From an uncultured Bacteroidales bacterium (GTDB taxonomy: Bacteria > Bacteroidota > Bacteroidia > Bacteroidales > UBA4417): 64,000 nucleotides of DNA. Location of the stretch: contig CAJAXK010000103.1 in the NCBI GenBank assembly GCA_903946925.1, positions 1 through 64,000 on the forward strand, written 5' to 3'. Position 1 is the stretch's first letter, and each line of letters begins with the position of its first letter. Both the position numbers and the translations under genes were made by a program. The notes beneath the pieces are model-generated. The model ran no database searches and was not told the DNA's origin. It was given only the letters and a program-made list of their open reading frames with translations. Positions 20,726 through 42,787 of this stretch are shown here, piece by piece.

Positions 20726-22264
20726 TTAATAACCAGGGTTTTGAGGAATAACCATTTCGTTGTTGGCGTCAATTTCTGTTTGAGGAATTGGCAACAAAAG
20801 TCTTTCCCTTATGAACTGTGTTTCGTCGGGCAGTGGGATTTTATCGTATTGCGAATACAAATCGGTCCAGTCTGTCACGAATACATGTGTTTTGAGTATA
20901 TCAAGTGCTTTGTTAGGATTGCCATACGAGTTTGCCATGCGCAATAAATCAAACCATCGTTGATTTTCAAAGGCAAGTTCCAGCCGTCGTTCTTTATACA
21001 CCGCATCCAGGGCTTCCTCTTTAGAAGTAAAAGGTTGAAGAGGATCCATGCCTGCCCTTGCCCTTATTTTGTTCACTTCGATACTGGCTTCGCCAATCCG
21101 CCCGTCCTGTGCCATAATCTCGGCGTTTAGAAGTACCATATCGGCATAGCGAATAACTATCCAGTCATTTTCGCATTGTTCTGGCAGGACCATAGTTGGA
21201 TCAATATATTTTGAAATGTATTGTATTGTATCTGTGGTAGATTTGAGCCATATCCGAAAACTTGGATCTTTACGGGTATCCTTGGGATCTGCACGGAATA
21301 AGCGCATAAGTTCAGGTGTAGGATTGTTGTCTCCGCGCGGGGTGCCAACCTTGAGGAAGAGGTTTGCTGAATTGTCGGGGGCAAATATTCCCCAAAACGG
21401 AGAACCTAACCCGCTACTTCCACCCAGATACCTTACTGCAAAGATGATTTCCTTATTCATTTCCTTAGTAATATCGAATATTTGGGCAAAAGCACCTGTT
21501 CCAATCAATAAACCATGAGGCGAAGTATTCAAAACTGCTTCGATCAATGGTTTTGCTTTAGCCAGGTTTTCATTGCCGCCCTGCATCATATAAGCTTTGG
21601 CCAACAAACTCATTGCCGCCCATTTCGTGATGCGACCGGCATCGCTTGATGAATAAGTGGAAGGGGCTTGTTCGATTGCTTTAAGCAAATCAGGGATAAT
21701 AATGTCGTTATAAATCTCATTTACAGGCGATCTGGGGATTTTCTTTGCTTCCTCAGCACTTATTACCGAAGTAACTTTGAACATATCGCCCCATAGATTA
21801 ACCAGGGTATAATAATGGTAGGCTCTGATAAACAGTAACTCTGCTTCGTACTGCGCCCTTTGCGCTTCAACAGGAATGTAGGTATTGTCGGCTACCGAAG
21901 GTAATATTGCATTCACGTTCGAGATGTTCTGAAACAGTTTGTACCAGTACTGTTGCATCATAGGCAAACTGGTGGATGTTCGGAAAAAAGCCAGATCGCA
22001 ATAATCCACACGGTCAACACCTGAAGTCCCGGTTGAGGCCACGCAGGTATTATCACTCCTGATTTCTGTGTATCTCCATTCGTCCTTTAAGGCTGTAGCT
22101 ATTCCGGCATAACAACCCATAACCCCCTGATTGATACGTGCTGGAGTGGTATAAAAATTGACTTGAGTCAAAACTGAGGCAGGCTTGTCTTCCAAAAAAT
22201 CTTTACATGCCCCTAACAGTATCAGAGTGGTGAAAGCTATGAGTATATATACTTTATTTTTCAT
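20726..22264 (-). CDS. SusD-like glycan-binding lipoprotein (RagB/SusD family)
   Basis: ILLGACKDFLEDKPASVLTQ; AEAQRAQYEAELLFIRAYHYYTLVNLWGD; RRLELAFENQRWFDLLR. Confidence 0.95.
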   Translation of the reverse strand: MKNKVYILIAFTTLILLGACKDFLEDKPASVLTQVNFYTTPARINQGVMGCYAGIATALKDEWRYTEIRSDNTCVASTGTSGVDRVDYCDLAFFRTSTSLPMMQQYWYKLFQNISNVNAILPSVADNTYIPVEAQRAQYEAELLFIRAYHYYTLVNLWGDMFKVTSVISAEEAKKIPRSPVNEIYNDIIIPDLLKAIEQAPSTYSSSDAGRITKWAAMSLLAKAYMMQGGNENLAKAKPLIEAVLNTSPHGLLIGTGAFAQIFDITKEMNKEIIFAVRYLGGSSGLGSPFWGIFAPDNSANLFLKVGTPRGDNNPTPELMRLFRADPKDTRKDPSFRIWLKSTTDTIQYISKYIDPTMVLPEQCENDWIVIRYADMVLLNAEIMAQDGRIGEASIEVNKIRARAGMDPLQPFTSKEEALDAVYKERRLELAFENQRWFDLLRMANSYGNPNKALDILKTHVFVTDWTDLYSQYDKIPLPDETQFIRERLLLPIPQTEIDANNEMVIPQNPGY

Positions 22265-22327: not shown

Positions 22328-25300
22328 CTAGAATGTAACATCAACTCCAAAGGCAAATGTCCGGTTAATAGGGTAAACACCTCTTTGATATCCGTCAATT
22401 AAAGGGCTTGAATATGGGCCACTCGTTTTTCGTCCTTCTGGATTTACGCCATCATATTCATCAGACATCAGGTACAACAGGTTCTGTGCTGAGAAATACA
22501 CACGTAAAGCAGAAAGTTTTATGGAGCGTACAAACTTTTTTGGAGCGGTGTAACCAAAGGTTAAATCGCGAAGTGCTGTATATGATCCGTTTACAATACC
22601 ATAATCAGTAAGTAACAGGAATTTCCCGGCAGTATTGGTTCCATAAACGGTTTTGCCATCACCGGGGAAAGCAGGACTTACAAAACGGTTATCGGTATAG
22701 GCAGTATTAGTACGAAGCGTTTCATTGTAATTCATGTTACCATCAATAATATCAACACCCTGTACACCCTGGAAAAGAAAACTCAGGTCGAAATTCCTAA
22801 ATGTGAACGTATTTGTTAGCCCCCATGTGAAATCAGGGAAAGGGTCTCCAAGAACAACGCGGTCGTAACTATCAATCTGGTAGTCACCATTCTGGTTCAC
22901 AACTTTTAGTCCTCCAATAACAGGAGTAAAATCGCCCCAATTAAATGGCATTCCGGTTTCCGGGTCTTTCATAGCCTTGGCAGCAGCAACATCTTCAAAA
23001 GTGAGATATACGCCGGCTGACTGGAACCCAAAATACTGAATGGCCTGTTCGCCAACGATAGCCCTGTAAACTTCGTTACGTTCGCCAAAATTATCTTCGT
23101 GGTCTTTGTTTCCATAGCCCAAAAGCTCGTTTTTATTCGCCGAGAGATTGGCTGTCAAATTCCATTTGAAATTTTTCTTATCAATATTTACTGAGGAGAG
23201 TTCCAGTTCAATGCCATTATTGCTCACCTCACCAATATTATTCCAGTACGTTTGGTGTCCGGTGATGTACATTGATGGGGATTGCAACAACATTGCCTTG
23301 GTTGTTGAATTGTAATATTCAACCGAAAGGTTCAAACGGCTCTTAAAAAATCCAAGATCAATACCAAAGTTAGCCTCCTGGGTTTGTTCCCACGTAATGT
23401 CGGGGTTTCCCAAGGCTGTGTTGTTGGAAGCCAAACCTGGATGAAGGGTCCCTATACCGCTCCCTGTTGGGTAATTGCTGGTATTTAAATAATTCATGTA
23501 CGAATATTGGGGGATGTTGTTGTTCCCTGTCAAGCCGTAACTCACGCGCAACTTTAAATTCGTTAGCCAAACGATACCTTTCATAAACTGTTCTTCAGAT
23601 GCACGCCAACCAACGGAAGCAGCCGGGAAATTTCCCCATTTATGCCCTTCGGCAAACTTAGAGCTTCCATCGCTGCGGAAACTTGCCGATACAAGGTATT
23701 TTCCCTTATAAGAGTAGTTAATACGCCCTAAAGCCGAAACCATTGATTCGGTATAATAATAAGAAGTGGTACCAGGCAAATCCGGGCTGTCGAGGATAAG
23801 GGTTGAAGCCATGTTAAATGAAATAATTTCTTCGTCAGGAAAACCGGTGGCTACAATTGTATTTGCCTTGTTACTGATTTTTTGCGCTGTAAATCCCAGT
23901 AAAGCACCAAAATCGTGATTGCTTATTTTTTTTGCATAGTTCAAGGTATTTTCTGTCAACAAATCGGTCATGAATGTTCCTGTACGGGTAAGCTTATTTG
24001 GATCACCGGCTTTTGATGCTTCAGTTTGTAGTTTTTCATTGAATTCGCGATAAGTAACATAAGCGCCATTCGATGTTTTAAACTGAAGCCCTGGTATAAT
24101 ATCAATGGTCAGATACATATTGGATTGCATCCTGTAATCATCGGTCAGGATACTGGTACGGTCGCGTTGCGACACAGGATTATGCATTGAAGACCCGGAA
24201 GCACTGGCAGAAGTAACACTCCATATTTCGTTATTTAATCCCATCCCGCTTAAATCAAGCCGGCCATAATGATACGGATGAGCATAAGTGCCTACAGGCT
24301 GGCCAGTTATAGCAGACGTTGCCTCGGTATGAGCAATTGGCATCCAGGTTGGGAAACGCAGATAACTGGTAAGATCTACACCGGGTGTTTCCTTTTTGCT
24401 GTAACTTGGATTCAGGTTAAACCCTAAAGTAATGTTTTTGGAAAGCTTCATATCCACTTTTGCGCGAAAACTGTACTTGTCGTACGAACTGTTTTTCATT
24501 ATGCCGTCCTCGCTGTTGAAATTTCCTGAAATATAATAATTGGTTCCACTGCTTCCCCCCGAGGCACTTAACTGATAATTGTTTTTCATTCCATTTGGCC
24601 TAAGCGCTTCGGAAACCCAATCAGTTTCTTCACCAATATAGTTTATTAGCAAATATCCAAGCTGATCGCCTTCGTTAGTTAAATCGAAAGGCATTGTTGC
24701 CGAAGTTCCGTCAACCGAAGGATCCAATCTCCTCTGTTCAGCTTCCTGGGCGTACAGTTTCGTTTGTTCCGATTGGCTCAGAACCCCTGGCAATGTATAA
24801 GCACTTGTAATACCGCTATACATTTTAAAATTATATTTTGGTTTTTTGATGTTCCCCGATTTTGTGGTAATCAGTATAACCCCGTTTGCCGCGCGGGAAC
24901 CGTACAAAGCAGATGATGCCGCGTCCTTCAATACTTCAATTGATTCCACATCACCCATGCTAACCATCGACATGCCATCGGCAACCGGAAATCCATCCAC
25001 TACTACAAGCGGATCAATGTTTGTGCTAATTGATCCCATTCCACGCACCCGGATTTGAGGAGCTTCGCCTGCATAAGGATCAACATTTGCAACTTGCACC
25101 CCCGACATTTTCCCTTGCAAAGCCTGATCGAGCCTTGATACCGGAATTTCATCCAGTTTCTCAGCCTTTATGGAAGCGATTGAACCCGTTAAATGTGATT
25201 TTTTCTGTTTCCCATAAGCTACAACAACAAATTCGTCCAGTTTTTGGGCATTCTGTTTCAAGATAACATTAATAACTGACTGTGCTCCAACTTGTATTTC

Positions 25301-25642
25301 CTGAGTTACAAAACCAATAAATGAAAATACCAAGGTAGTGCTATCATCAGGAACATCAAGACTATAAGTACCATTGCTGTTTGATACCACACCCGAGGTA
25401 GTACCTTTAATGATAATGCTCACACCGGGTAAGGGTACCTGCTGTTCATCGGTGACAGTACCGGTTACATTTTTTTTAGAAACCATGGTTTCAGATGATA
25501 GCGGAACTGTTCCGGTAAAATTGCCTGCCTCTAGGTTTATACCATTAAGCAGCAGAAACAACGCTGTTAGTGCTCCAATCCATCGAAACTTAAAGGTTTC
25601 CATTTTTAGATAGGTTTTGCAATTCATCACATTTTTTTTCAT
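22328..25642 (-). CDS. SusC-like TonB-dependent outer-membrane transporter
   Basis: VTGTVTDEQQVPLPGVSIIIKGTTSGVVSNSNGTYSLDVPD; plug VRGMGSISTNIDPLVVVDGFPV...IEVLKDAASSALYGSRAANGVILITTK. Confidence 0.97.
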   Translation of the reverse strand: MKKNVMNCKTYLKMETFKFRWIGALTALFLLLNGINLEAGNFTGTVPLSSETMVSKKNVTGTVTDEQQVPLPGVSIIIKGTTSGVVSNSNGTYSLDVPDDSTTLVFSFIGFVTQEIQVGAQSVINVILKQNAQKLDEFVVVAYGKQKKSHLTGSIASIKAEKLDEIPVSRLDQALQGKMSGVQVANVDPYAGEAPQIRVRGMGSISTNIDPLVVVDGFPVADGMSMVSMGDVESIEVLKDAASSALYGSRAANGVILITTKSGNIKKPKYNFKMYSGITSAYTLPGVLSQSEQTKLYAQEAEQRRLDPSVDGTSATMPFDLTNEGDQLGYLLINYIGEETDWVSEALRPNGMKNNYQLSASGGSSGTNYYISGNFNSEDGIMKNSSYDKYSFRAKVDMKLSKNITLGFNLNPSYSKKETPGVDLTSYLRFPTWMPIAHTEATSAITGQPVGTYAHPYHYGRLDLSGMGLNNEIWSVTSASASGSSMHNPVSQRDRTSILTDDYRMQSNMYLTIDIIPGLQFKTSNGAYVTYREFNEKLQTEASKAGDPNKLTRTGTFMTDLLTENTLNYAKKISNHDFGALLGFTAQKISNKANTIVATGFPDEEIISFNMASTLILDSPDLPGTTSYYYTESMVSALGRINYSYKGKYLVSASFRSDGSSKFAEGHKWGNFPAASVGWRASEEQFMKGIVWLTNLKLRVSYGLTGNNNIPQYSYMNYLNTSNYPTGSGIGTLHPGLASNNTALGNPDITWEQTQEANFGIDLGFFKSRLNLSVEYYNSTTKAMLLQSPSMYITGHQTYWNNIGEVSNNGIELELSSVNIDKKNFKWNLTANLSANKNELLGYGNKDHEDNFGERNEVYRAIVGEQAIQYFGFQSAGVYLTFEDVAAAKAMKDPETGMPFNWGDFTPVIGGLKVVNQNGDYQIDSYDRVVLGDPFPDFTWGLTNTFTFRNFDLSFLFQGVQGVDIIDGNMNYNETLRTNTAYTDNRFVSPAFPGDGKTVYGTNTAGKFLLLTDYGIVNGSYTALRDLTFGYTAPKKFVRSIKLSALRVYFSAQNLLYLMSDEYDGVNPEGRKTSGPYSSPLIDGYQRGVYPINRTFAFGVDVTF

Positions 25643-25664: not shown

Positions 25665-25770
25665 GAATGATAAAATTATATAGATGGGCTTGCGTAATCT
25701 CTAAATTATCAGCCTTGTTTTTAAAAAAATAGGTCAAATTGAAACTTATCAGTCAGGTTGATTGATAATT
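25665..25770 (-). promoter_or_regulatory. Shared cis-regulatory module copy A (upstream of SusC)
   Basis: GAATGATAAAATTATA ... TTATCAGCCTTGTTTTTAAAAAAATAGGTCAAATTGAAAC-TTATCAGTCAGGTTGATTGATAA; palindrome-like core 25746-25768. Confidence 0.75.
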
Positions 25771-26371: not shown

Positions 26372-26412
26372 AAAAAAAACACAGTTACCGGCATAAAGCA
26401 GATAACTGTGTT
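26372..26412 (-). terminator. Predicted intrinsic terminator (minus strand)
   Basis: AACACAGTTA (26378-26387) / TAACTGTGTT (26403-26412) preceded on plus by A-run. Confidence 0.7.
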
Positions 26413-26548: not shown

Positions 26549-29500
26549 TTATTGTGTTACAACAACTTTTTGTGTTACGGTCAATTTTTTGGTAACCACT
26601 TTTACGATATAAACACCGCTTGCATTTGTGTACAATTTGGTTTCGCCTGAGTTTAGACTGGAACTTGCAACTAATTGGCCTGATGTGGAATAAACATAAA
26701 TATCACCTTCAGCAATCCCATCCTGTACAACATGTATGGTGCCATTAGCTGAGAAAGTGCGTATCCCCGAATTATCAAGCTCTTTGTTACTGGTAATTAC
26801 GGTAAACCATACTTTAAAACGGTTCTCTAAATCACCCGGTGCAGCGGTGAAGGAATATACTGGGTTTATCCGCAAATCTTGTACGCTACCCAATTTCAAA
26901 TCCTGAAGAAAAATTGGGACTGTAGGGTTGAAACTTTCGATACCTTCCGCCGAAATTGTATAAGTAGACGCGGCACCAACCATTAGTCCAAGAGGAACAT
27001 TTTGGCTTGTAACGTAGGAAGGCAAAGTATTTACAGCAGCTTTTGTATCCGTCAAGATCGAGTACATTTGAGGAGCCATAGTAATTCCAGCAAGTTTGTA
27101 TGCATCCAATGCCTGATCGAAACCCGTTGTTGAACCCGTAACAAAACGAATGTAAGCAACATCCGAATAACCGTTTCCATTCACGGTAAGTTTAAGCCTA
27201 TCCTGCAACGAAGCAGTATTCTTAAGGAAAGTTCCACCTAGCGTTTTTGATGCTGAAGTGAGTGTAAGGGAATTTGTAGCAGAACCGGTTCGTACAACGA
27301 ATCCTTGAAGCGATGCAATGATGCCGGGGAAATCGCTTGTACCAATCGAAAGTGGGTTATAATTTGCTCCGTTCCACACATAAGCAAATGCATTTAAATC
27401 GCCGCTGAGGGTACACAATTCCGGATTTATCCCCGAAGGATATGGGTTTCCAACCAAATGATAGCCCGATTCGTTGCCTGGAGGTGTGGTGGGATTAGTG
27501 TATGACAAATTGGTATAAGCTACCGGTGTTGGTTGCAAGGCTCCTACAAAACTTAAAGTGCGGGTATTTCCTGTTGGATAATTGATGCTATATCCTGTTA
27601 ATGGAAGTATTGGGTCATTGAGAACCAAACTTGCCCAGGTACCATTAGGCTCCAGGTATTTTTCTAAATTCGAACCATTGAACACCGATGTTGACGAATT
27701 GATAACATTGGTTGTAATTGGCGAAACAAAATGATGCTTTATTTCGGGTCCTGCAGTTATGTCACGTTCAATGGTAACATCGCCGGTAATGGTTCCATTA
27801 GTGATAAACGAAGCACCTGATGCAACTGTAAATGTTCCGGAACCAACGTTGATGCCACTATTAGTGCTAAAATTCCCTCCAATTGCAGCGGTTGCGCCTG
27901 TAGCAAAAGCAATATTTATTCCGCCTGCTACCTGAGCAATACTGAGTGCTGAACCTACCGGAACATCTAAATCAACTCCTGTTTCCCCCTTAATAGTTAA
28001 AGTTACTGGTGCTGAAGCTTGAAGTTCAAGGTTGGTATTGTTCGATAGCAACAATTGCCCTATGGTTTGATCAGGTACATTGGTAACAATTATATTACCT
28101 CCGCTATTAAACTCAAGTACATCGTTGATTTGTGGATTTGTACGTGTTGGCGACCAGTTACCAGGAATGGCCCAGGATGCAGTTCCGCTTTGATTCCAGA
28201 AATAGGTACCTGCCGGGGGCGCTAATGTGGTAGTAGTAGCTGTTGGGCTTGACACGGTGTAATAATTATAGGTCGCCGCATTTAATCCATCTGAATTAAC
28301 TGACATAATACAAAAACTATATGTCGAATTTGGTGATAGACCGCCAATAGAAAATGCTGCAGTTGTACCAGAACTGATATTCGCCGCTACAGATCCATCC
28401 CCCAATACAGTGCCTGCCGGATAAACAGTAGCGTCCATTGGGATTCCAGTTGGCGCTGATGAACCTTGTTTTTGCAAGATAAAATATCCATCGGCAGCCA
28501 CCGCCGTCCAGCTAAGTTCAACAGTTGTAGCACCGGTTGCAACAGCAGTAAAATTAGTTACCTGATTTATCGGTTCGTCGGCCAAGGTATAAAAATCGCT
28601 TTCTAAAGTCAAAGTTGTACCAACGCTATTGCTTGCATACGCTTTATAGAAAATATGCGATTTGGCAGGAAGCGGTGTGCGCACATGCGAAAAAACACCA
28701 ATTGAAGTTGAAGTGTCTGCCAGTTTATTATTGGTTATAGTAACCCCTGTTGATGTGTTCCAAACGGTTCCCCTTTCAATAATTGCATTATCTCCATCGT
28801 AAGTAATATTACCGCCCAATGTAGCCGAATTGTTTAGAACATTCGTGGCAGTTGGATCCTGTATTGATGGGGCAATTGGACTGAGAGTGGTAAACGGTGC
28901 TGAAGCTGCGGAAAGGTAAGAGTCGGCAAAATTCACAAAATTGTCACCTTTAGCCATAACCTTGTATGTGTATGTACTGTCAGGGATAAGCCCTGTTATG
29001 GCCAAAGCCGAAACAGCCTGACCAGTAGTGTTGGTTTTGCTGATAAGGCTTGTACGTTTGTAAAGGAATACCTCATAACCTGTTGCATTTGTTACAGGTG
29101 TCCAGTTTGCGGTAAATCCGGTACGGGTAATATCTGTTGCAATGCCTACAACCGGTGCTGGTAGTGTAACCGGATTTGTCAACCTGGTAATTACCTGAAC
29201 TACTGACATACCGCCTGAGCCATTGTTCCTCACCCGAAATTTAGTTGGAACTGCCCTGCTTATGGGTATAACATAAATAGAATCCAAACCTGAGGCTTTG
29301 CTTGCTGTGTTATACACATAAGTCCCGATCAAATCCCATACGCTTGTGGATGTATTATATTCTTCCAGCACAAAACTTCTTTCGGCCGTACCTGTATATG
29401 CGTGTATTTCAATTTGTTCAACCGAATTTATTTCCGGAAAAACGACAAGGCTGTTATATGAATTCTTATCCAGGTTAAAATCATTTATATGTTCTTCGCC

Positions 29501-30985
29501 CCTTCGATCTTTTTTGTTCGCTTCCCTAACCACCGCTTTTTCGAGGATAAAACCATTTATTGAATAGGATGGGAATGTTCCATTTGCAGGGGTTTCAGGA
29601 ACAGGTATACCCCAAGTTCCATCGCCGAGGTCAGTATGTATTGTATCTAAAATCACATAACTGGTAATAAAAACTGCTGAAGCTGCTGATGGGGTGGAAT
29701 CAAAATAGGTGGTCCCGTCGCCTTTGGCTATTACTACAAAAGTATAGGATGTGCCGAACGACAAGCCAGTTACGGCCAAACTTGAAGTTGCCTGACCCGT
29801 GGCATTGGATGTGCTTACAAGCTGAGTGCCAAGATATACCCTGACTTCATACCCTGTAGCATTGGCAACGGGAGTCCAATTTGCGGTGAAACCGCTTGCC
29901 GTAATATTCGTTGCAATTCCTACCACAGGCGGCAAAAGGCCTAAAGTTGTAAATGCAGTAGATTCAGCGGATGGGTCGGAATTTGTATAATTTATACCAT
30001 CCCCTACTGCTGTTACCTTATATGTATAAGTGGTACCAGATGAAAGCCCCGATATGGCAACGCTTTCGGTAACCTGCCCACTTGCATTGGTAGTATTAAC
30101 AAGAGTGGTTCCAGAATAAACTTTAACAATATACCCGGTTGCATTAGCTACCTGGGTCCAGTTTGCTGTAAAACCCGAGTTCGAAATTGCAGATGCTACG
30201 CCAACTATTGGCGATGGCAGTTTAGGTATCTGAACGGCTACTGCAGAAGCCCATGAGGTTGATACCCGTGCTCCACTAACATTATACTTTGAGACAGAGG
30301 TGCCATTTGCCCTGAACCAGAAGTTGTTCAAAGAAGTTCTTATTGTAGCCGAGGTATTATCAAAGACCTCAGGTGTTGTTGGTTCTGTGCCGGAAATTAT
30401 AGGATTTATATAGATTGATGAAGTTTGGGTTGCAAAATCATACTTTAAAACAATCAGAAAGACCTCGTTTACGTCTGCAAACTCGGTTGTTCCCCATTTG
30501 ATGTCAGCACTCGACTGGCTTCCCCTGGTTGTACCAAATCTGAAATAAGTTGTATTTATAGCACCTTTTCCAACATATACTTTTGCACCTGCATTTGTAT
30601 TTATTGCCATCCCAAAAACCTCTGATTGTGATTGAACCTGAGTAACCCCTGGTTTATATATAAAAGTTAAATATACGGGACCAGTTGTTACAGGTGTAGA
30701 GGTAAAGGGTTTTAAGGAATAATAAGCTGTGGCAGATGAAATATCGCAATTTATTGTTTTTCCTGCACCGGAAAGGAAATACGGGCCACCAGAATTTGAG
30801 TAGGTAAGTGCCGGTGATACAATATTTCTTCCTGTACCTGTGGTGAGTGTTCCAGCAGTTGTCCATGTAGGTTCAAGTGCCAGATTTGAAACTGTGTAGT
30901 CAAAGGTTTCATCATACAAAACCTGTCCTTTGGAGTTCAGAAATAAGGAACACAGTGCTAGTAAAAGTATTAGTATTTTTTTCAT
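26549..30985 (-). CDS. Large secreted mosaic protein: jelly-roll-like domain, FnIII repeats, unique domains, C-terminal T9SS-like domain
   Basis: VLYDETFDYTVSNLALEPTWTTAGT; repeated GFTANWTPVANATGYEV FnIII motifs; C-terminal GDIYVYSTSGQLVASSSL...GVYIVKV. Confidence 0.75.
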   Translation of the reverse strand: MKKILILLLALCSLFLNSKGQVLYDETFDYTVSNLALEPTWTTAGTLTTGTGRNIVSPALTYSNSGGPYFLSGAGKTINCDISSATAYYSLKPFTSTPVTTGPVYLTFIYKPGVTQVQSQSEVFGMAINTNAGAKVYVGKGAINTTYFRFGTTRGSQSSADIKWGTTEFADVNEVFLIVLKYDFATQTSSIYINPIISGTEPTTPEVFDNTSATIRTSLNNFWFRANGTSVSKYNVSGARVSTSWASAVAVQIPKLPSPIVGVASAISNSGFTANWTQVANATGYIVKVYSGTTLVNTTNASGQVTESVAISGLSSGTTYTYKVTAVGDGINYTNSDPSAESTAFTTLGLLPPVVGIATNITASGFTANWTPVANATGYEVRVYLGTQLVSTSNATGQATSSLAVTGLSFGTSYTFVVIAKGDGTTYFDSTPSAASAVFITSYVILDTIHTDLGDGTWGIPVPETPANGTFPSYSINGFILEKAVVREANKKDRRGEEHINDFNLDKNSYNSLVVFPEINSVEQIEIHAYTGTAERSFVLEEYNTSTSVWDLIGTYVYNTASKASGLDSIYVIPISRAVPTKFRVRNNGSGGMSVVQVITRLTNPVTLPAPVVGIATDITRTGFTANWTPVTNATGYEVFLYKRTSLISKTNTTGQAVSALAITGLIPDSTYTYKVMAKGDNFVNFADSYLSAASAPFTTLSPIAPSIQDPTATNVLNNSATLGGNITYDGDNAIIERGTVWNTSTGVTITNNKLADTSTSIGVFSHVRTPLPAKSHIFYKAYASNSVGTTLTLESDFYTLADEPINQVTNFTAVATGATTVELSWTAVAADGYFILQKQGSSAPTGIPMDATVYPAGTVLGDGSVAANISSGTTAAFSIGGLSPNSTYSFCIMSVNSDGLNAATYNYYTVSSPTATTTTLAPPAGTYFWNQSGTASWAIPGNWSPTRTNPQINDVLEFNSGGNIIVTNVPDQTIGQLLLSNNTNLELQASAPVTLTIKGETGVDLDVPVGSALSIAQVAGGINIAFATGATAAIGGNFSTNSGINVGSGTFTVASGASFITNGTITGDVTIERDITAGPEIKHHFVSPITTNVINSSTSVFNGSNLEKYLEPNGTWASLVLNDPILPLTGYSINYPTGNTRTLSFVGALQPTPVAYTNLSYTNPTTPPGNESGYHLVGNPYPSGINPELCTLSGDLNAFAYVWNGANYNPLSIGTSDFPGIIASLQGFVVRTGSATNSLTLTSASKTLGGTFLKNTASLQDRLKLTVNGNGYSDVAYIRFVTGSTTGFDQALDAYKLAGITMAPQMYSILTDTKAAVNTLPSYVTSQNVPLGLMVGAASTYTISAEGIESFNPTVPIFLQDLKLGSVQDLRINPVYSFTAAPGDLENRFKVWFTVITSNKELDNSGIRTFSANGTIHVVQDGIAEGDIYVYSTSGQLVASSSLNSGETKLYTNASGVYIVKVVTKKLTVTQKVVVTQ

Positions 30986-31045: not shown

Positions 31046-33736
31046 CTAAGGCATTTTCTTACCGGCAAATCCAGTTGCATTTGCATTTATAAGTTGCAAA
31101 TCTGTTTCATTTACCATCCCATCCCCATTCACATCATTTGCAACATAACCGGTAACAAAGTTTGATGCATCGTTGTCAACAACAACCAAATCACCTGCAT
31201 CAACAATGCCATCCTGGTTTACATCGCCGGCATACATACCAAACACACCGCTTCCAAGGTCTTTCATGTTATTGCCAAATGCTTGTGAAACTGAGGTGCT
31301 GAAATTATAATCCATTGTGGTTCCTGCAAATGAAACCGGGACGGAACTCCAAAGTTCGACGCTGTTGCGATGTTTGATTACGATGTAGTAGGAACCAGAA
31401 GCAAGATATGAGATAGAGTCGATTGACAGAGTTCCACCTGTGCTTAAATCTATTGCATTAAAAGTAAAAGCGGTTGCGTAAGGCGCTGTTGAATTGTGCA
31501 ATTCAATGCTTACCTGATCAGCAATTTCAGGGGCAAATTGAGCAGCCGAACTCTTTTGAGCCTGGTTCATTGTATTGGATCCTGCGTAAAGACTTTCGAG
31601 GAAAACTGTGAGGTTGAGGGTTTTAACAGGTGGTGAAAGCAGGGTAAATGGTGCTGAAGCTACTGATAGATACGAGTCGGAGTAGTTTACAAAACCATCG
31701 CCTTTTGCAAGAACCTTGTACGTGTATGTTGAATCGGGGATAAGCCCTGTTATGGCAGCGGACGAAATGGTTTGACCACTTACGCTGCTTGTGTCAACTA
31801 AATTTGTACGCTTATAAACAAACACCTTATAGCCTGATGCATTGGTTACGGGTGTCCAGTTGGCAGTAAATCCAATATGAGTAATATCCGTAGCAGTACC
31901 TACTACCGGCGATGGCAGCGTGGCAGGATTTGTATGCCTGGTAATTACCTGTGCTATATTCATCCCGCCACCTCCGGTGTTTCTCACCCTGAACTTGGTT
32001 GGGACTGTTCTGGTGATAGGTATAACATATATGGAATCGAACCCCGAGTTCTTGCTTGCTGTGTTATATATGTAATTCCCAACTAAAACCCATGCACTTG
32101 TACCTGAATTATACTCTTCTACTGCAAAAGGTCTTTCGGCTGAACCTGTATATGCATGCAATTCAATTTGTTTCACTGAATCTACAACCGGAAACACAAC
32201 TGCGCCTGCATTGGAGAGATTGTCAAGAGCAATGTCGTTAACATGCGTTTCGCCTCTCCGGTCTCTCTTGGTAATAGCTCTGATAACAGATTTTTCCATA
32301 ACAAAACCGTTTATTGAACTTGATGGGAAAAAGCCGTTTGCAGGTGTGGAAGAAGCAGGTGTACCCCAGGACCCATCTCCAAAATCGGTGTGAATAGTAT
32401 TCACATTCATATAGCTTGTAATGAAAACCGGAGAAGCAGTTGAAGGTGACGAATCAAGATATGTTGCACCATCACCCTTTGCTATTATCACAAAAGTATA
32501 AGAAGTACCAAATGACAAGCCAGTAATCGCCAGACTTGCAGTTGCCTGACCGGGGGCATTTGTGGTGCTAACGAGAAAGGTCCCCAGGTATACCTTAATA
32601 TCATAACCACTAGCGTTAGCAACGGCTGTCCAGTTTGCAGTGAAACCGTTTGCTGTAATATTTGTTGCAACTCCAACTGTTGGTTGCGTAAGGCCCAATG
32701 TTATAAATGCAGCCGATGCTGCTGAAGGATCTGAACTGGAAAATGTTGTGCCATTGCCAATTGCTGTAACCGTATATGTATAAGTAGTTCCTGATGCAAG
32801 ACCAGATACGGTTACGTTCTCAGTAGCCTGTCCGCTGGCATTTGTTGTGTTTACAAGGGTAGCCCCGGAATAAACTTTAACCGTATACCCTGTAGCATCA
32901 GGTACCTGGGTCCAGTTAGCAGTAAAACCTGTAAGCGAAATTGAGGATGCTGTACCAACAATAGGTGAAGTTAGTTTAGGAATCGCAACAATCGCCACTG
33001 CATCAGTCCAAGAACTGGAAACTCTTGCACTACTTAGATTGAAATTTGCTTTATTATTACCGTTATATCTAAATCGAATTGTACTAAGTGTATTTTTGCC
33101 TGTTCCTGATACACTGTCAGCTGCGTTTGCAGCCGGTTGTGAAGAAGATCCTAATGTTGGAGTGATAAAAATCGATGAAGTTAATTTTGTAAAATCATAT
33201 TTTAGAACAATTATAAATACGGCATTCAAGTCAAAGTATTCTGTCACCCCCCATTTTATATCTGCACTGCCTGTATTGCCTCTGGTCGTACCGAACCTGA
33301 AACCAGTTGTAAGTCCCTTCCCAACCATTACTTTAGGCCCAGTGCTAGCTCCATCCCCGAGTCCAATTACTTCAGATTGACTTTGACCTTGAGCTACTCC
33401 GGCTTTGTATAAAAAGGATAAATATACTGATCCGGAATTAACGCTACCAAATGCTTTATAGCAAATATAATCGGCAGCCCCATTTGTATAATCACTATTT
33501 ATTTTTTTTCCCTGACCGGAAAGCAAATAAGTTCCATCGGTAGTTACATAAGTTAATGCAGGAGTAGCAATATTTCTTCCCGTGCCGACGACCGGGGGTG
33601 TTCCCGATGAAGTCCATGTTGGTTCTAGATCAAGTTTTGCAACACTATAATCAAATGTTTCATCCAGCAATACCTGTCCGAAAGTGCTCGTAATCAACGA
33701 GAACAGGGCAACTATTAAAGTAAAGTTTTTTTTCAT
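31046..33736 (-). CDS. Large secreted mosaic protein: jelly-roll-like domain, FnIII repeats, C-terminal dockerin-type-I-like calcium-loop pair
   Basis: VLLDETFDYSVAKLDLEPTWTSSGT; FnIII motifs; C-terminus AGDVNQDGIVDAGDLVVVDND...DVNGDGMVNETDLQLI. Confidence 0.75.
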   Translation of the reverse strand: MKKNFTLIVALFSLITSTFGQVLLDETFDYSVAKLDLEPTWTSSGTPPVVGTGRNIATPALTYVTTDGTYLLSGQGKKINSDYTNGAADYICYKAFGSVNSGSVYLSFLYKAGVAQGQSQSEVIGLGDGASTGPKVMVGKGLTTGFRFGTTRGNTGSADIKWGVTEYFDLNAVFIIVLKYDFTKLTSSIFITPTLGSSSQPAANAADSVSGTGKNTLSTIRFRYNGNNKANFNLSSARVSSSWTDAVAIVAIPKLTSPIVGTASSISLTGFTANWTQVPDATGYTVKVYSGATLVNTTNASGQATENVTVSGLASGTTYTYTVTAIGNGTTFSSSDPSAASAAFITLGLTQPTVGVATNITANGFTANWTAVANASGYDIKVYLGTFLVSTTNAPGQATASLAITGLSFGTSYTFVIIAKGDGATYLDSSPSTASPVFITSYMNVNTIHTDFGDGSWGTPASSTPANGFFPSSSINGFVMEKSVIRAITKRDRRGETHVNDIALDNLSNAGAVVFPVVDSVKQIELHAYTGSAERPFAVEEYNSGTSAWVLVGNYIYNTASKNSGFDSIYVIPITRTVPTKFRVRNTGGGGMNIAQVITRHTNPATLPSPVVGTATDITHIGFTANWTPVTNASGYKVFVYKRTNLVDTSSVSGQTISSAAITGLIPDSTYTYKVLAKGDGFVNYSDSYLSVASAPFTLLSPPVKTLNLTVFLESLYAGSNTMNQAQKSSAAQFAPEIADQVSIELHNSTAPYATAFTFNAIDLSTGGTLSIDSISYLASGSYYIVIKHRNSVELWSSVPVSFAGTTMDYNFSTSVSQAFGNNMKDLGSGVFGMYAGDVNQDGIVDAGDLVVVDNDASNFVTGYVANDVNGDGMVNETDLQLINANATGFAGKKMP

Positions 33737-33795
33737 AACTTTTGGTTTAAATCGGTTTTATGGTTAGGTGTTTTGGTTTCTAAGTTTGGTTAGCG

Positions 33796-33901
33796 GAATG
33801 ATAAAATTATACAGAACATACTTGCTTTTATTGAAGTTATCAGCCTTGTTTTAAAAAAAATAGGTCAAAATAAAACTTATCAATCAAATTGATTGATAAT
33901 T
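33796..33901 (-). promoter_or_regulatory. Shared cis-regulatory module copy B
   Basis: GAATGATAAAATTATAC ... TTATCAGCCTTGTTTTAAAAAAAATAGGTCAAAATAAAAC-TTATCAATCAAATTGATTGATAA (perfect 11-bp inverted repeat, 33877-33899). Confidence 0.78.
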
Positions 33902-34839: not shown

Positions 34840-37800
34840 TTAGTTAACAAACACTTTTTTAACCAACGTATTATCCTTGCTAATCACTTTTACTATATAA
34901 TTACCTGTTCGATTGAGGCCAATCTCATTCATGCCTTTTGCTGATGTTTGGGTCGAAATCAACTCACCTAGTACATTATAGACGAAAATATCGCCTTCAA
35001 CCCGGTCTTTGAAATTAACATAAACTGTTTTTCCGTAACTATATATAAGTGCAGTCGAACTTTCTATATCGTTTGTTGACAACGGGCCAAAATGTAGTAC
35101 AAAACGCTGCGCTGTTTCGCCTGGAATAAAGTTAAACGAATAGGAACTTTTCAACAAATCCGTAAGGATCCCAGTTTTAGTATCTTCCAGGGTTACCTTC
35201 GAAAACTCACCTGTTTTGGCAGCTTTGATACTAAAAAAACCTGCTTCAACTGCTGTAAATCCAACAGGAACATCGGATGTTGCGGGCAAACCATTAATTG
35301 CCAGTTTTTCACCCATTGGGGTTATTGAATAAATCTGCGGCAATTTAGAGTTTTTGGTGCTTATAATCTTATATGCATCAAATTGCCCATCATGCTCTAT
35401 ACCTGCTTGTTCATTGAAATAAACCAATGCCTGATCGGAGTAGTTTGATCCGGTTGCTTCGAGAATCAATAATTTCGGGTTCCCTGATTTGTAGAAATTG
35501 TTTGCTCCTGAATGTGAGCGTTGTGCATTACCCAGTTCAAATATCCCAGGTGCTGTTGCTTTTACAAAAAATCCTTGCATCGGAGGAACAAATTGCGAAT
35601 TGCTCTGACCTGGTATCCCTTTTATATAAGGAAGATAATTACTGGAAGCAGCATCAAGTACATAAACCACATTATCCATTCCTGCAGGGATAATAACATT
35701 TTCCCAATCCAGTGAAGACACAAATGGATTTCCCATCAAATTGTAACCGTCGCTACCAAAAGTGAATGACCTGGTTTTAGTTCCCAGGTTCAAGTCGCCG
35801 GTGAATGAAACAGTATTTGTAGTACTTAAGGTTGAATAAAGAGCATAGCCTTCCATTACGTTCAAAAGAGTAGCGTCACTTGTAATATCGGAAAACAAGG
35901 AAGAGGTTTCAGAGTAATTCTGCATGTACATACCCGAAAATACACCTGCTGTTGCAACCACAACAGGGGATGATACAAGATGCCAGTCATCGGTGCTTGG
36001 TGGAGGATCGCCAGTAAAATACCTTTGCACTGTTGCAGTACCGGATACGGTTAAAAATCCGTTATCCAGCAAAGTAGCAGTACCGGCAGCAGTTGACCCA
36101 AAAAGTATGTTATGACAGGTTCCGGCTGCCGAAAGTGTTGGATACCTTACTAATCCTGCTGGTATGGTTACATCAGTAAATGCGCCCGGTGTGGATGGGT
36201 TCCAGTTTCCAGGTATGGACCATTCGTTGCTTTCAGCACCTGTCCAGGTAGCAGAAGCAGGAGGTGAAAGTATTGTAACAGGTGTTGATGCTGAAGAGAG
36301 GTAGGAGTCGGCATAATTTACATAACCATCACCAGTAGTCCGCACTTTGAACGTATACGTCGAATCGGATATAAGCCCTGTTATGACTTTGGATGCTGTA
36401 GATTGGCCACTCACACTGGTTTGGCTGACGAAATTGTCGCGTTTGTAAACAAATACCTCATACCCTGTTGCGTTAAGTACTGGAGTCCAGTTTGCTGTAA
36501 ATCCGAAGCTTGTAATATCCGATGCCGCTCCTATTACAGGAACCGGAAGTGTAACCGGATTTGTAAGCCTTGTTATTACCTGGGCTATATTCATCCCACC
36601 ACCACCGGTGTTTCTTACCCTGAACTTGGTAGGGACAGACCTGCTGATAGGAATAACATATATTGAGTCATAACCCGAAGCCTTGCTTGCCGTGTTATAT
36701 GTGTATGTACCAATAGGAATCCATGTACTTGTACCTGCATTATACTCATCCAATGCAAAAGTTCTTTCGGCTGTGCCTGTATATGCATGCAATTCAATCT
36801 GTTCCACTGAATTTACTTCCGGAAAAACAACAACTCCTGCATTGGTGAGATTGTCGAGAGCAATATCGTTTATGTGTGTAAACCCTCTCCGGTCTTTTTT
36901 AGTAATGGCTCTGATAACTGCTTTTTCCATGACAAACCCGTTTATCGAACTTGATGGGAATAAGCCGTTTCCAGGAGTGGCACCTGCTGGAGTTCCCCAT
37001 GTTCCATCGCCAAAGTCGGTATGGATTGTATTTACAATACTATATGTCGTGATAAAAGTCGGCGATGCAGCTGAAGGTGACGAATCAAGGTATGTTACAC
37101 CATCTCCTTTTGCAATTACAACAAAAGTATAGGATGTGCCAAATGAGAGACCAGTAATTGCCAGGTTCGTGGTAGCCTGACCGGGAGCATTTGATGTGCT
37201 TACTAGCAATGTACCCAAATATACCTTAACATCATACCCAGTTGCATTGGCAACCCCAGTCCAGTTTGCTGTAAAACCGCTTGTTGTAATATCTGTTGCT
37301 ACTCCTACTGTTGGTTGTAAAAGCCCCAAGGTTGTAAATGCAGCCGATGCCGTAGAAGGATCTGAACTGGAATAACTAGTGCCATTGCCAATTGCTGTAA
37401 CCGTGTAAGTATAAGTAGTACCAGATGCAAGACCGGATATGGCCACACTTTCAGTTGCCTGCCCACTGGCATTGGTCGTACTTACAACTGTTGCTCCCGA
37501 ATAAACTTTAACGCTGTAACCGGTTGCATTAGCCACCTGGGTCCAGTTTGCAGTAAAGCCCGTAACCGCAATTGAAGATGCTGTCCCTACAACAGGCGAA
37601 GTGAGTTTAGGGATCTGTGTAAAAACTGCTTCAGCCCATGTTCTTGATACCCTGACCCCACCAATATTATATTTCATACTTGAGGTGCCTTGAGCCCTGA
37701 CCCACAAATTATTAAGGGAAGTTCTGGCTGTACCGGAATTGTCCGAAATATCGGCTACAGGTTCAGTACCGGAAATGATTGGATTTATAAAAATGGAAGA

Positions 37801-38376
37801 AAATTGAGTAGAAAAATCATATTTCAAAACTATAAGAATGACCTCATTAACATTAGCAAATTCGGTAGAAGCCCATTTAACATCACCACCTGACTGGCTT
37901 GATCGGGTAGTACCAAATCTAAATGAAGTAGTTGTTACAACCCCTTTACCAACATAAACCTTTGGGCCTGCACTAGTTCCGGTTGACATTCCAAAAACCT
38001 CTGAATTAGTTTGATTTTGGATTACACCGGCTTTATACATGAAAGTTAAATAAATCGGACCTGTTGAGATAGGAGTTGCAGTAAAAGGCTTTAAAGAGTA
38101 GTAGCTAGTGGCATTAGTAATATCGGAATTCATTATTTTTCCTGTACCAGATAGATAATATATTCCTCCCGAATTTGAGTACGACAAGGCTGGTGAAACA
38201 GTTGGATCTAGTATATTCCTTCCTGTTCCAGCAAGTAAAGTTCCTGAAGTTGTCCAACCAGGTGCAGAAGCCAGATTTGGAACTGTATAATCAAAGGTTT
38301 CATCCAGCAGTACTTGTCCGAAAGTACTCGTAATCAACGAGAACAGGGCAATCATTAAAGTAAAGTTTTTTTTCAT
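34840..38376 (-). CDS. Large secreted mosaic protein: jelly-roll-like domain, FnIII repeats, C-terminal T9SS-like domain
   Basis: VLLDETFDYTVPNLASAPGWTTSGT; FnIII GFTANWT repeats; C-terminal GDIFVYNVLGELISTQTS...NYIVKVISK. Confidence 0.75.
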   Translation of the reverse strand: MKKNFTLMIALFSLITSTFGQVLLDETFDYTVPNLASAPGWTTSGTLLAGTGRNILDPTVSPALSYSNSGGIYYLSGTGKIMNSDITNATSYYSLKPFTATPISTGPIYLTFMYKAGVIQNQTNSEVFGMSTGTSAGPKVYVGKGVVTTTSFRFGTTRSSQSGGDVKWASTEFANVNEVILIVLKYDFSTQFSSIFINPIISGTEPVADISDNSGTARTSLNNLWVRAQGTSSMKYNIGGVRVSRTWAEAVFTQIPKLTSPVVGTASSIAVTGFTANWTQVANATGYSVKVYSGATVVSTTNASGQATESVAISGLASGTTYTYTVTAIGNGTSYSSSDPSTASAAFTTLGLLQPTVGVATDITTSGFTANWTGVANATGYDVKVYLGTLLVSTSNAPGQATTNLAITGLSFGTSYTFVVIAKGDGVTYLDSSPSAASPTFITTYSIVNTIHTDFGDGTWGTPAGATPGNGLFPSSSINGFVMEKAVIRAITKKDRRGFTHINDIALDNLTNAGVVVFPEVNSVEQIELHAYTGTAERTFALDEYNAGTSTWIPIGTYTYNTASKASGYDSIYVIPISRSVPTKFRVRNTGGGGMNIAQVITRLTNPVTLPVPVIGAASDITSFGFTANWTPVLNATGYEVFVYKRDNFVSQTSVSGQSTASKVITGLISDSTYTFKVRTTGDGYVNYADSYLSSASTPVTILSPPASATWTGAESNEWSIPGNWNPSTPGAFTDVTIPAGLVRYPTLSAAGTCHNILFGSTAAGTATLLDNGFLTVSGTATVQRYFTGDPPPSTDDWHLVSSPVVVATAGVFSGMYMQNYSETSSLFSDITSDATLLNVMEGYALYSTLSTTNTVSFTGDLNLGTKTRSFTFGSDGYNLMGNPFVSSLDWENVIIPAGMDNVVYVLDAASSNYLPYIKGIPGQSNSQFVPPMQGFFVKATAPGIFELGNAQRSHSGANNFYKSGNPKLLILEATGSNYSDQALVYFNEQAGIEHDGQFDAYKIISTKNSKLPQIYSITPMGEKLAINGLPATSDVPVGFTAVEAGFFSIKAAKTGEFSKVTLEDTKTGILTDLLKSSYSFNFIPGETAQRFVLHFGPLSTNDIESSTALIYSYGKTVYVNFKDRVEGDIFVYNVLGELISTQTSAKGMNEIGLNRTGNYIVKVISKDNTLVKKVFVN

Positions 38377-38434: not shown

Positions 38435-38540
38435 GAATAATAAAATTATACAGAATAAACCAGCTATTATAGAAGTTATCAGCCTCGTTTTTAAATAAAT
38501 AGGTCAAAATAAAACTTATCAATCAAATTGAATGATAATT
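38435..38540 (-). promoter_or_regulatory. Shared cis-regulatory module copy C
   Basis: GAATAATAAAATTATAC ... TTATCAGCCTCGTTTTTAAATAAATAGGTCAAAATAAAAC-TTATCAATCAAATTGAATGATAA (38516-38538). Confidence 0.75.
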
Positions 38541-38707
38541 GAAAAGGCATTTCCACCTAAAAAAGAGGAATAGCTGAAATAAATTGCTTATTTTTGAAAA
38601 TATTTCCGACTGATACCCGGTTCCTCAAATTTCAAGGAACAACTTTTGGACAAAAAGATCAGCTTTGCCCCTTCTTAAGGGCATTTTAGAACCCAAAACA
38701 CAAACAC

Positions 38708-41700
38708 ATGCGAATACATATACTCCTGCTGGCCTTTATTTTTTCGTTTTGCGGCTTTTCGTTTGCAACCATTCCCGATAATATTAATTTTTCGTTTCGT
38801 AGGATTTCCCCTGTGGGCGGATTTACGTATGGGTCGATAAATTCCATCTGCGAGGATGCGAATGGCTTTATTTGGTTTGGCACAATTCATGGCTTATACC
38901 GTTACAATTCGGTTGATGTACAGAAATTCCTGCATAGCCCACAAGATTCTACCTCTATTCCCGACAATTCGATTCGCACCATTTTTCTTGATTCGTCGGG
39001 AACGCTTTGGATTGGTACTGCCCAAGGGGTTTGTATTTACGATAATGATAAAGACCAGTTTATTACACTCAAATTTAGGGATAAATCGGGGGAAAGCCTG
39101 GGGAATAATATCCGTGATATTTTTGAAGGCAAGGATAAAAACATCTACCTCCTTAGCAACACCATGTTGGGGAAATACAATAAGGAAACCAAAAAGTTTG
39201 AAAAAATAGTGGTTGCAAAATCCACAACTGAGAATTTTGCCTGTGCTAATTACGATTCGAAAGGGCGGTTTTGGATTGGTGGGGCTAACGGGACCGTTTG
39301 GATGCTTGAAGCAACAGACCAAAAATTACGTGTGTTTTGCCATCATCAGTCGGAATTGATACGGAAGTTATTTTCCGATGAAACAGGGCTTTGGATTGGA
39401 TATGATTTGTCGGGGCTTGATTTTGTTGGATTTCAGGGAAATTTGATACGGCATTATGGTAGCAATCCCAACGATACATATAAAATCAATCACAACCGTG
39501 TCCGCGATATCAATAAAGATGAGGCCGGGCGGATATGGATTTCGACATACAAAGGCATTTCGATTATCAATAATGGCAAAAGTTATAATATCCTTCCGAA
39601 AGAAATTTCCGGTTTGCCCTATAACAGTATCTATAAAATATTCCGCGATTCAAAAAACGGCATCTGGATTGGAACCTGGTCGGGTGGACTTGCTTACAGA
39701 TCCGATTTCGATAACCGGTTTTTTCATTTTCGAAAAGATCAGACCGATTCGGAAATGGAGGACGAATTTGTGAGTTCGTTTGCCGAAAAATCGGACAAAA
39801 CTGTTCTGATAGGAACCGAATTTGGTAACCTTAATCTTCTCGACCGGGAATCAAATAAAATGATCAACGTCCCTTTTAAAACAGAAAACGGGAAAAAATT
39901 TGAAAATATCAAGTCGTTGTACTTCGACAAGGAAACAGAAACCCTTTGGGTGGGCACATTTTTGGAAGGTTTGTGGTATCAGACTAAAAATGACAATACT
40001 TTACATGAACTGAAAAAATTTAATCAAGATAGAATAAGCATATATGCGCTTGCCAAATCAGGCATCAACTTGTGGATTGGCACTTTTGGCAAAGGACTAT
40101 ACCATTACAACACCCAAACAGGCATAATGAAACAGTATGTTCAAGTAGCACGTAATGCAAAGTCGTTAAGCAATAACCAAATACGCTCAATTATTAGCGA
40201 CAATGAAAACGGAATCTGGATTGGGACTAAAAATGGATTAAATTATTTCGACCCAAAAACCGCAGAATTTCAACGATTTATGAACTTGCCTAATGCCACC
40301 AATTGTATCAGCAACGACGAAATACTATCCTTGTATCAGGATCGCAAAGGTAAAATCTGGATTGGAACCAGTGGGGGCGGCTTGAACAAATACGATAAAA
40401 AAACAGGGAAATTCGAGTCGTTTGGGGTAAAGGATGGCTTATCGGGTAACGATGTGTACGGAATACAGGAAGACCAAAATGGAATACTCTGGATAAGTAC
40501 CGAAAATGGCATCTCAAGCATTGATCCGATAAAGAAAACGATACGGAATTTTTACAGGGAAGATGAACTTAAAGGCAACCAATTCAATCCGGGAGCGGTA
40601 TTTCAAACCAGCTCAGGCGAAATACTTTTTGGCAACACTAAAGGGTTCACGCTTTTTACTCCGGGGCAGATGAAAACCAACCCTATTCCACCAAAGGTTA
40701 TCCTAACCTCCCTATCAATCAACAATTTGGCTGTAACCAACCATACTGAAGGATCACCATTGACAAAATCACTTCAAAATGAAGACATCCTGAAACTTAC
40801 ATTCGATCAAAATTCGCTCACTTTTAATTTTGTGGCCAATAATTTTTTACTACCTGCCAAAAACCAGTTTAAATATAGGTTGATGAATTACGATAATAAA
40901 TGGGTGGAAGCAGGAACACAAAACTATGCGGCCTTCACTAAAATCCCTCCAGGGGATTATGTGTTCGAGGTAATTGCTTGTAACAACGACAATTTGTGGA
41001 GCAACACACCTACTCGTTTGAAGATCAGTATTTCGCCGCCTTTTTGGTTGGCGTGGTATGCCAAACTGATTTATATATTGGCCGTTTCCTTAGCTTTCTA
41101 TTATGTCCGCAAGGAAGTGGTTGCCCGTCAGAAGTTTAAAAAGGAACTCTTGCTCGAACGCCTGCGGCACGAATCGGAAGCCCAGTTGCAGGAAATGAAG
41201 CTAAGGTTTTTTACAAATATTTCGCATGAATTCAGGACGCCACTTACACTTATTTCGTCGCCAATAAACCTGTTGATCGAAAAATTCAAGCTGGAACCTT
41301 CAGTAAAGGAACATCTACTCACCATGCGGCGCAATTCGGACCGCCTGTTACGATTGGTGAACCAACTGATTGATATTCGCAAAATCGAATTGGGGAAAGC
41401 CGTTTTTCAGCCACAACACACAGATCTTATACACTTATGCCGAAACGTGATCAGTTGTTTCGAAATGGAGGCTGTTGACAAACAAATACGTTTGCTTTTT
41501 AATCCCGAAATTGAATTGTTGATCTTGCCTCTTGATGCAGAAAAGGCGGAAAAAATATTCTTCAATATCCTTTCGAATGCAATGAAATTTACTCCCGAAA
41601 AGGGGACAATCGGCATCACCGTTTATTCGACCCATTCAGATGAAAATGCTGACGAAAACCTTGTTGTAGGTGAACAAATTCAAGGTAATATGATTTGTGT

Positions 41701-42787
41701 CGAATTTTCGGACAACGGGCCTGGTATAGCACCGGAGGATCTCAAATTAATATTCGAACGCTTCGAACAAGGCAAAAAACACCAATCGTCAGGCACTGGG
41801 ATTGGTTTACACATTGCTCACGAGTACATAAAAATGCACAAAGGCAACATAAGGGTGAAATCAAAAATTGGGACTGGTTCAACTTTTACCATCAGTTTTC
41901 CGTTTAACGAAGAGCTTGATCCGAAAAAAGAATGGAAAGCAGCAAGTGATTTTAACCCTCAGTTTAATGTTCTGGCCGAACCAAACAGTTTCCGTCCACC
42001 ACATGAAGAAAAGGAAAAAACATATACCATCCTTATTGTTGAGGATAATTATGACCTTAGGAATTACCTAAAAAACCTGTTAAACCAGCAATACCATATT
42101 GTTACTGCGCCAAATGGCAAGCAAGGCCTCGAAACTGCCCTGACCATACTTCCCGAATTGGTTATTACCGATGTGATGATGCCACAGATGGATGGTTTGG
42201 AATTATGCCGGCAGCTAAAAGACAATATTTTAAGCAGCCATATTCCTGTAATAATGCTTACCGCCTTTAGCGATTCCGAAAAACAAATCGGTGGGTTGAA
42301 AACTGGTGCCGATGCTTATATCACCAAGCCTTTTGATGAAAATATCCTGATGGCGCAAATCGAAAATTTAATTTCATCGAGGGCAAAACTCAGGGAAGTA
42401 TTCTCTGTTTCCGATACTGCCTGGGCCGAAGGAATGGATGTGATGTTTTCGGATAAAATGCTGATTGAAAAAGCCACGGCTATTGTGGAAAAACATTTAA
42501 GCGACAAATCTTTTGTAATTGATAATCTTGCCTCTAACATTGGAATCAGCACAAGTTCCCTTTACCGGAAATTGAAAATGCTTACCAACCAATCGCCAAC
42601 CGAGTTTGTGAGGTATATCCGACTAAAGAAAGCAATCAAGCTTATGAACGATGGGAACACAAATGTGGATGAAATTGGTTTCGCAGTTGGTTTCAATTCC
42701 CACTCCTATTTTACGAGCAGTTTCAAGAAACAATTTGGGATAACACCTTCCGATTATATTATCGATCTGAAGACGAAAAAGAAATAA
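38708..42787 (+). CDS. Hybrid two-component system regulator (HTCS): propeller sensor, Y_Y_Y, histidine kinase, receiver, AraC HTH
   Basis: Repeated LWIGT..G.. propeller motifs; TM segment; FFTNISHEFRTPLTLI; GTGIGLHIAHEYI; ILIVEDNYDLRNYL...VITDVMMPQMDG; C-terminal AraC helix-turn-helix SSLYRKLKMLTNQSPTEFVRYIRLKKA. Confidence 0.95.
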   Translation: MRIHILLLAFIFSFCGFSFATIPDNINFSFRRISPVGGFTYGSINSICEDANGFIWFGTIHGLYRYNSVDVQKFLHSPQDSTSIPDNSIRTIFLDSSGTLWIGTAQGVCIYDNDKDQFITLKFRDKSGESLGNNIRDIFEGKDKNIYLLSNTMLGKYNKETKKFEKIVVAKSTTENFACANYDSKGRFWIGGANGTVWMLEATDQKLRVFCHHQSELIRKLFSDETGLWIGYDLSGLDFVGFQGNLIRHYGSNPNDTYKINHNRVRDINKDEAGRIWISTYKGISIINNGKSYNILPKEISGLPYNSIYKIFRDSKNGIWIGTWSGGLAYRSDFDNRFFHFRKDQTDSEMEDEFVSSFAEKSDKTVLIGTEFGNLNLLDRESNKMINVPFKTENGKKFENIKSLYFDKETETLWVGTFLEGLWYQTKNDNTLHELKKFNQDRISIYALAKSGINLWIGTFGKGLYHYNTQTGIMKQYVQVARNAKSLSNNQIRSIISDNENGIWIGTKNGLNYFDPKTAEFQRFMNLPNATNCISNDEILSLYQDRKGKIWIGTSGGGLNKYDKKTGKFESFGVKDGLSGNDVYGIQEDQNGILWISTENGISSIDPIKKTIRNFYREDELKGNQFNPGAVFQTSSGEILFGNTKGFTLFTPGQMKTNPIPPKVILTSLSINNLAVTNHTEGSPLTKSLQNEDILKLTFDQNSLTFNFVANNFLLPAKNQFKYRLMNYDNKWVEAGTQNYAAFTKIPPGDYVFEVIACNNDNLWSNTPTRLKISISPPFWLAWYAKLIYILAVSLAFYYVRKEVVARQKFKKELLLERLRHESEAQLQEMKLRFFTNISHEFRTPLTLISSPINLLIEKFKLEPSVKEHLLTMRRNSDRLLRLVNQLIDIRKIELGKAVFQPQHTDLIHLCRNVISCFEMEAVDKQIRLLFNPEIELLILPLDAEKAEKIFFNILSNAMKFTPEKGTIGITVYSTHSDENADENLVVGEQIQGNMICVEFSDNGPGIAPEDLKLIFERFEQGKKHQSSGTGIGLHIAHEYIKMHKGNIRVKSKIGTGSTFTISFPFNEELDPKKEWKAASDFNPQFNVLAEPNSFRPPHEEKEKTYTILIVEDNYDLRNYLKNLLNQQYHIVTAPNGKQGLETALTILPELVITDVMMPQMDGLELCRQLKDNILSSHIPVIMLTAFSDSEKQIGGLKTGADAYITKPFDENILMAQIENLISSRAKLREVFSVSDTAWAEGMDVMFSDKMLIEKATAIVEKHLSDKSFVIDNLASNIGISTSSLYRKLKMLTNQSPTEFVRYIRLKKAIKLMNDGNTNVDEIGFAVGFNSHSYFTSSFKKQFGITPSDYIIDLKTKKK

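Follow-up and report, generated by a model that had tools for sequence, protein, structure and literature searches.

Among the major switches of glycan use in Bacteroidetes are hybrid two-component systems (HTCSs), whose DNA sites have mostly been predicted, in gut Bacteroides. For 16 HTCSs of B. thetaiotaomicron, Ravcheev and colleagues predicted motifs in which sites of 12-16 bp are repeated in direct orientation, on average 21 bp apart (PMC3878776). Operators of SusR consist of direct repeats that lie 67 or 77 bp apart (PMC3878776). The promoter recognized by the primary sigma factor of Bacteroidetes combines TAnnTTTG at -7 with TTTG at -33 (cited in PMC7366714).

In the window, i.e. the whole stretch of 64,000 nucleotides analysed here, three blocks of about 105 bp with the same internal spacing are located 5' of a SusC gene (copy A) and of two operons encoding FnIII proteins (copies B and C). 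Like Bacteroides HTCS operators, the block is a conserved two-part site 5' of susC and of further operons in a PUL whose HTCS combines a Reg_prop sensor with an AraC-type HTH. Widely spaced half-sites 5' of susC-type genes are shared with SusR operators, and a -7-like element close to TAnnTTTG, at a fixed offset from the candidate operator, resembles that of the primary-sigma promoter. The differences are in the layout: an inverted repeat, a direct copy 40 bp away and the invariant box TTTGACCTA are found here, in contrast to direct repeats of about 21 bp in Bacteroides HTCS operators; the proposed regulator is an HTCS, unlike SusR; and TTTG at -33, present in the primary-sigma promoter, is missing from the block. 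As a predicted site the block belongs to a well-known kind, but its arrangement is unusual. We consider it likely that it represents the promoter module of one PUL, from which the adjacent HTCS would activate three operons.

The first gene behind copy A encodes a SusC/RagA outer-membrane transporter (22328..25642, minus strand; TIGR04056) and the second gene of this operon a SusD-like lipoprotein (20726..22264, minus strand; PF07980, PF14322). Copy B is followed by a gene for an FnIII protein with a dockerin-like C-terminus (31046..33736, minus strand); the next FnIII gene (26549..30985, minus strand) lies 60 bp behind it and, because of this short distance, probably belongs to operon B. Copy C sits between a third FnIII gene (34840..38376, minus strand) and the divergent gene of the proposed activator (38708..42787, plus strand), confirming that the HTCS gene adjoins this copy, as the first-pass annotation had noted. 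The HTCS joins a periplasmic sensor, a kinase, a receiver and an AraC-type HTH in a single chain (Reg_prop propeller, Y_Y_Y, HisKA, HATPase, receiver, AraC-type HTH). The row of genes behind susCD comprises four sulfatases, two chondroitinase-B-like proteins, one member of the alginate-lyase family and several T9SS-tailed proteins, while on the far side of the HTCS a uronate-catabolism row includes glucuronate isomerase (UxaC) and a LacI-type regulator. The large PUL spans positions 465-25642 of the window, with the uronate-catabolism row beside it (43000-56516), and the substrate is probably a sulfated, uronate-containing polysaccharide (sulfated polyuronide).

Some further features of this region can be listed. 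The secreted FnIII protein encoded at 31046-33736 has a dockerin type I match (PF00404, E 5.6e-06, residues 836-884), and its neighbours carry T9SS sorting tails. A small ORF of ~79 aa (MKRKILVTVIAAFLITAPLLMFAQPHPNGG...) is located on the minus strand between copy B and the copy-C FnIII gene (~34503-34742). It starts like a signal peptide, continues with a stretch rich in Pro, Gly and Asn and with a hydrophobic segment, and ends in basic residues. A pair of similar sequences, AAAAAACACAGTTA...TAACTGTG, resembles intrinsic terminators; one (~26378-26415) stands before the FnIII end of operon B and the other (~34425-34470) in the gap near the small ORF.

Inspection of the three blocks (A, 25665-25770; B, 33796-33901; C, 38435-38540) located every element described in the first-pass annotation, at identical spacing. 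The GAAT motif starts at 25665, 33796 and 38435 in A, B and C, respectively, and the palindrome, which has no strand, begins 81 bp further in each (25746..25768, 33877..33899 and 38516..38538). The first TTATCA, 40 bp ahead of the palindrome in all three, begins at 25706, 33837 and 38476; read on the minus strand it is a third half-site, TGATAA (25706..25711, 33837..33842 and 38476..38481), which in copy A lies at a distance of 40 bp from the right palindrome arm. The sequence TAGGTCAAA at 25730, 33861 and 38500 corresponds to the invariant box TTTGACCTA of the coding strand (25730..25738, 33861..33869 and 38500..38508, minus strand). Finally, TAAAATTA at 25671, 33802 and 38441 is TAATTTTA on the coding strand, a -7-like element (25671..25678, 33802..33809 and 38441..38448, minus strand). 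The order on the coding (minus) strand is the inverted repeat TTATCnATCAA-n-TTGATTGATAA, then STTTTATTTTGACCTATTTTTT, AAAACAAGSCTGATAACTT, about 19 variable bases and TCTGTATAATTTTATCATTC. Copy B is indeed a perfect 11-bp inverted repeat with a 1-nt centre, all 11 arm pairs being formed, compared to 9/11 in copy A and 10/11 in copy C.

Searching the 6.17 Mb genome with the 26-mer TGATTGATAAGTTTNANTTTGACCTA, composed of the right arm and TTTGACCTA, disclosed exactly three matches with up to 3 mismatches, all at blocks A, B and C, that is, only at the three promoters of the locus and at no random position; the reversed 26-mer, used as a control under the same threshold, had zero matches. When the palindrome alone was used (up to 2 mismatches), two extra matches appeared in the same genome, one within an ORF (contig C484) and one intergenic without TTTGACC (contig C84). 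Both were dropped as further sites, the other boxes being absent, and look like chance. These statements about the whole genome are based on pattern searches. Across 394 genomes of the order, just five single matches to the pattern were obtained outside this genome and one congener; they are inside ORFs, are not accompanied by the rest of the block, and were judged to be chance (G136, G143, G270, G315 and G377). About 80 HTCS-bearing loci of other genomes and 28 of congeners, scanned with a weight matrix, revealed no additional block, and positions 22000-43000 had no match among Rfam families.

Only one of 15 congeners, the uncultured Bacteroidales bacterium KTt_bin-0938 (G011), carries the block, in three copies located ahead of the orthologous susC and the same two FnIII genes. 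The HTCS ortholog (contig CAIRHD010000365, 89% identical) is likewise found in this congener alone, the best HTCS elsewhere in congeners being 36% identical. In a scan of public genomes, the closest further HTCS (60% identical) belongs to Loclat_bin-16932 (G405), and it is only partial, as the contig stops ahead of the DNA-binding domain. The strict pattern had no match in G405, and a diverged copy emerged from reading the sequence 5' of its SusC ortholog (60% identical), where the contig end falls within the block: GTCAAAATGATCGATAACTTATATTCTGACCTTATTTTGATAAAATCAGACTCAATAATT. Scored with a weight matrix made from the six other copies, it reaches 29.9 bits over 60 positions against a maximum of 17.8 in a background of 0.9 million positions, which includes loci fetched for their resemblance to the pattern; for positions 9-49 alone, the score does not exceed that of every background position. 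The right arm and TGACCT are the best-kept parts, the third half-site is weakly kept (7-8/14), and the -7-like element TAAATTGG is at exactly the same offset as TAATTTTA, so that spacing is preserved down to the -7 element. The N-terminus of the FnIII protein had no match in G405, where an empty answer shows little. We consider G405 the strongest independent support for the block. In the 16 genomes of the genus and G405, which are fragmented, those named being metagenome assemblies, the block is present together with the HTCS ortholog and absent without it. Because it is found solely in genomes that also carry the HTCS gene, the block is most likely a landing site of this HTCS.

Copies B and C form paralogous pairs of promoter and gene (86% identical over 200 nt), and since they were duplicated together with their genes they do not count as independent. 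The likeness of A to these two is limited to the block, because A and B, identical at 54 of the first 60 positions, agree at 5/19 positions of the spacer and only at background level outside the block. Divided by parts, identity between A and B is 11/11 in the left arm, 9/11 in the right arm, 7/7 in TGACCTA, 13/14 in the third site and 11/12 in the -7 region; unlike the arms, TGACCTA and the third site, the spacer of 19 nt ahead of the -7 element is not conserved. Kept elements combined with a diverged spacer suggest protein contacts at fixed spacing. Within the two close genomes, strong conservation extends to the invariant TGACCTA and to the direct repeat of the right arm, 40 bp downstream of it. 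As copies B and C, and their counterparts B2 and C2 in G011, each resemble within-genome copies of one another, independent copies of the block probably number about five, fewer than they look.

Over 70 bp, B2 matches C2 exactly, yet both differ from B and C, a pattern suggestive of gene conversion or separate duplication. In addition, the leaders of FnIII genes, measured from block to start codon, are ~350 nt in the congener (L018, G011:C365, ~7918-8290 and 12869-13230) and ~65 nt in the window (33736-33802 and 38376-38441), the two long ones being similar to each other.

The first-pass annotation regarded the shared module as a candidate HTCS operator, with an activator bound upstream at the palindrome. 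A module shared under the adjacent HTCS is well supported, because the block recurs at three operons, co-occurs with the HTCS ortholog and has a constrained spacing to the -7 element. The part of the claim that makes the palindrome itself the operator is upheld only partly, since the left arm changes without compensation, TGACCTA and the 40-bp copy are strongly conserved too, and published motifs are direct repeats. The sixth base of the left arm varies (A, G or C) with no compensating change in the right arm, and strict dyad symmetry is therefore not maintained.

These features make it quite possible, if on the less probable side, that the HTCS does regulate the three operons, through a same-strand array of the right arm, TTTGACCTA and the third half-site, with spacings of 19 and 21 bp, each close to two turns of the helix, while the left arm would be auxiliary or, at copy C, would serve the divergently transcribed HTCS gene. 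Such an array would be a version of the preferred explanation, with which it is compatible. It agrees with other HTCS motifs being direct repeats of about 21 bp (PMC3878776), with the best preservation of the right arm and TGACCT in G405, and with the direct repeat at 40 bp, GATTGATAAGTT/GCCTGATAACTT, which is significant (reached by 1/300 shuffles). Furthermore, 39 susC-like upstream regions near HTCS genes (L058-L135) are enriched in direct repeats of 21-23 bp (9 against ~0.8 expected); the direct-repeat rule is therefore visible in independent data from many Bacteroidetes beyond Bacteroides. Within the block, however, neither the three-box array spaced 19/21 bp (49/300 shuffles reach it) nor any direct repeat of 18-23 bp (54/300) is significant, whereas none of 60 column shuffles reaches the inverted repeat, and the left arm is kept at 9/11 positions in six copies. 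Either the present HTCS would read a composite operator, or its 21-bp array would be too degenerate to see. A separate observation concerns Algoriphagus sp. CAU 1675 (L069), in which a susC-like start (14182) near another HTCS gene is preceded, at 106 and 85 bp, by two copies of TTGATTGAT with a distance of 21 bp between them. This sequence equals the half-site of the right arm described here, but in direct orientation; this repeat is suggestive and was set aside as a possible coincidence, the DNA-binding domains being just 40% identical.

Concerning promoter elements, TAATTTTA in two genomes and TAAATTGG in the third are each one base off TAnnTTTG (7/8 positions, counting the two free ones), and the position of the element is kept in all three. 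Inspection of seven aligned copies did not reveal TTTG at -33, and a half-site ends just upstream of this position. The missing TTTG is compatible with an activator-dependent promoter, as weak evidence, because Flavobacterium johnsoniae has no identified -33 motif according to PMC7366714. On the plus strand, TATTTTTG (38589..38596) is a perfect match and a candidate -7 element of the HTCS gene, 51 bp beyond the palindrome of copy C. At C of the congener the element is retained, at B it is missing, and copy C may have a second role, at the HTCS gene.

Dimeric repressors and LacI-type proteins usually bind palindromes, and the block could in principle be the operator of a different regulator, an unlinked AraC-type or LacI-type protein, with the HTCS as an incidental neighbour. 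The genome has many further HTCS and kinase homologs (53 matches), and a LacI-family gene (55377-56516) is the sole other regulator found in the window. This gene, however, sits with the separate uronate-catabolism row, the block accompanies the HTCS ortholog across congeners and in the third genome, and the palindrome, ~70-90 bp 5' of the -7 element, would occupy the position of an activator and not of a simple repressor, so we consider such a regulator unlikely. Leftover homology from a recent promoter duplication, devoid of regulatory meaning, is very improbable: B and C were clearly duplicated with their genes, and the identical B2/C2 block differs from theirs, but divergence has affected spacer and flanks and spared the block, the diverged copy in G405 keeps the spacing, and zero copies exist elsewhere in the genome.

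If, as preferred here, the adjacent HTCS is the activator, it would sense a breakdown product of its glycan and then phosphorylate its own receiver domain, which carries the SHIP motif described for phosphorylation-gated HTCSs (PMC11253607). We infer that the AraC-type domain would then bind half-sites of the TGATAA type, both those of the inverted pair and the one repeated directly 40 bp downstream, and probably contact the invariant TTTGACCTA box between them as well. Placed upstream of a -7 element without an obvious -33 partner, the bound HTCS would presumably contact polymerase and switch on susCD and the two FnIII operons together. As a more tentative generalization, which we find rather doubtful at present, some HTCSs outside Bacteroides may bind a composite operator in which an inverted pair of half-sites is joined by a third, directly repeated site some four turns of the helix downstream.

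The block links three FnIII proteins with a PUL that appears to target a sulfated polyuronide. A compact regulon of three promoters with a near-perfect predicted site offers a directly testable target in an uncultured lineage, and it probes whether every HTCS reads 21-bp direct repeats. A composite operator, if true, would mean a different arrangement of the DNA-bound HTCS compared to that on the 21-bp direct repeat.
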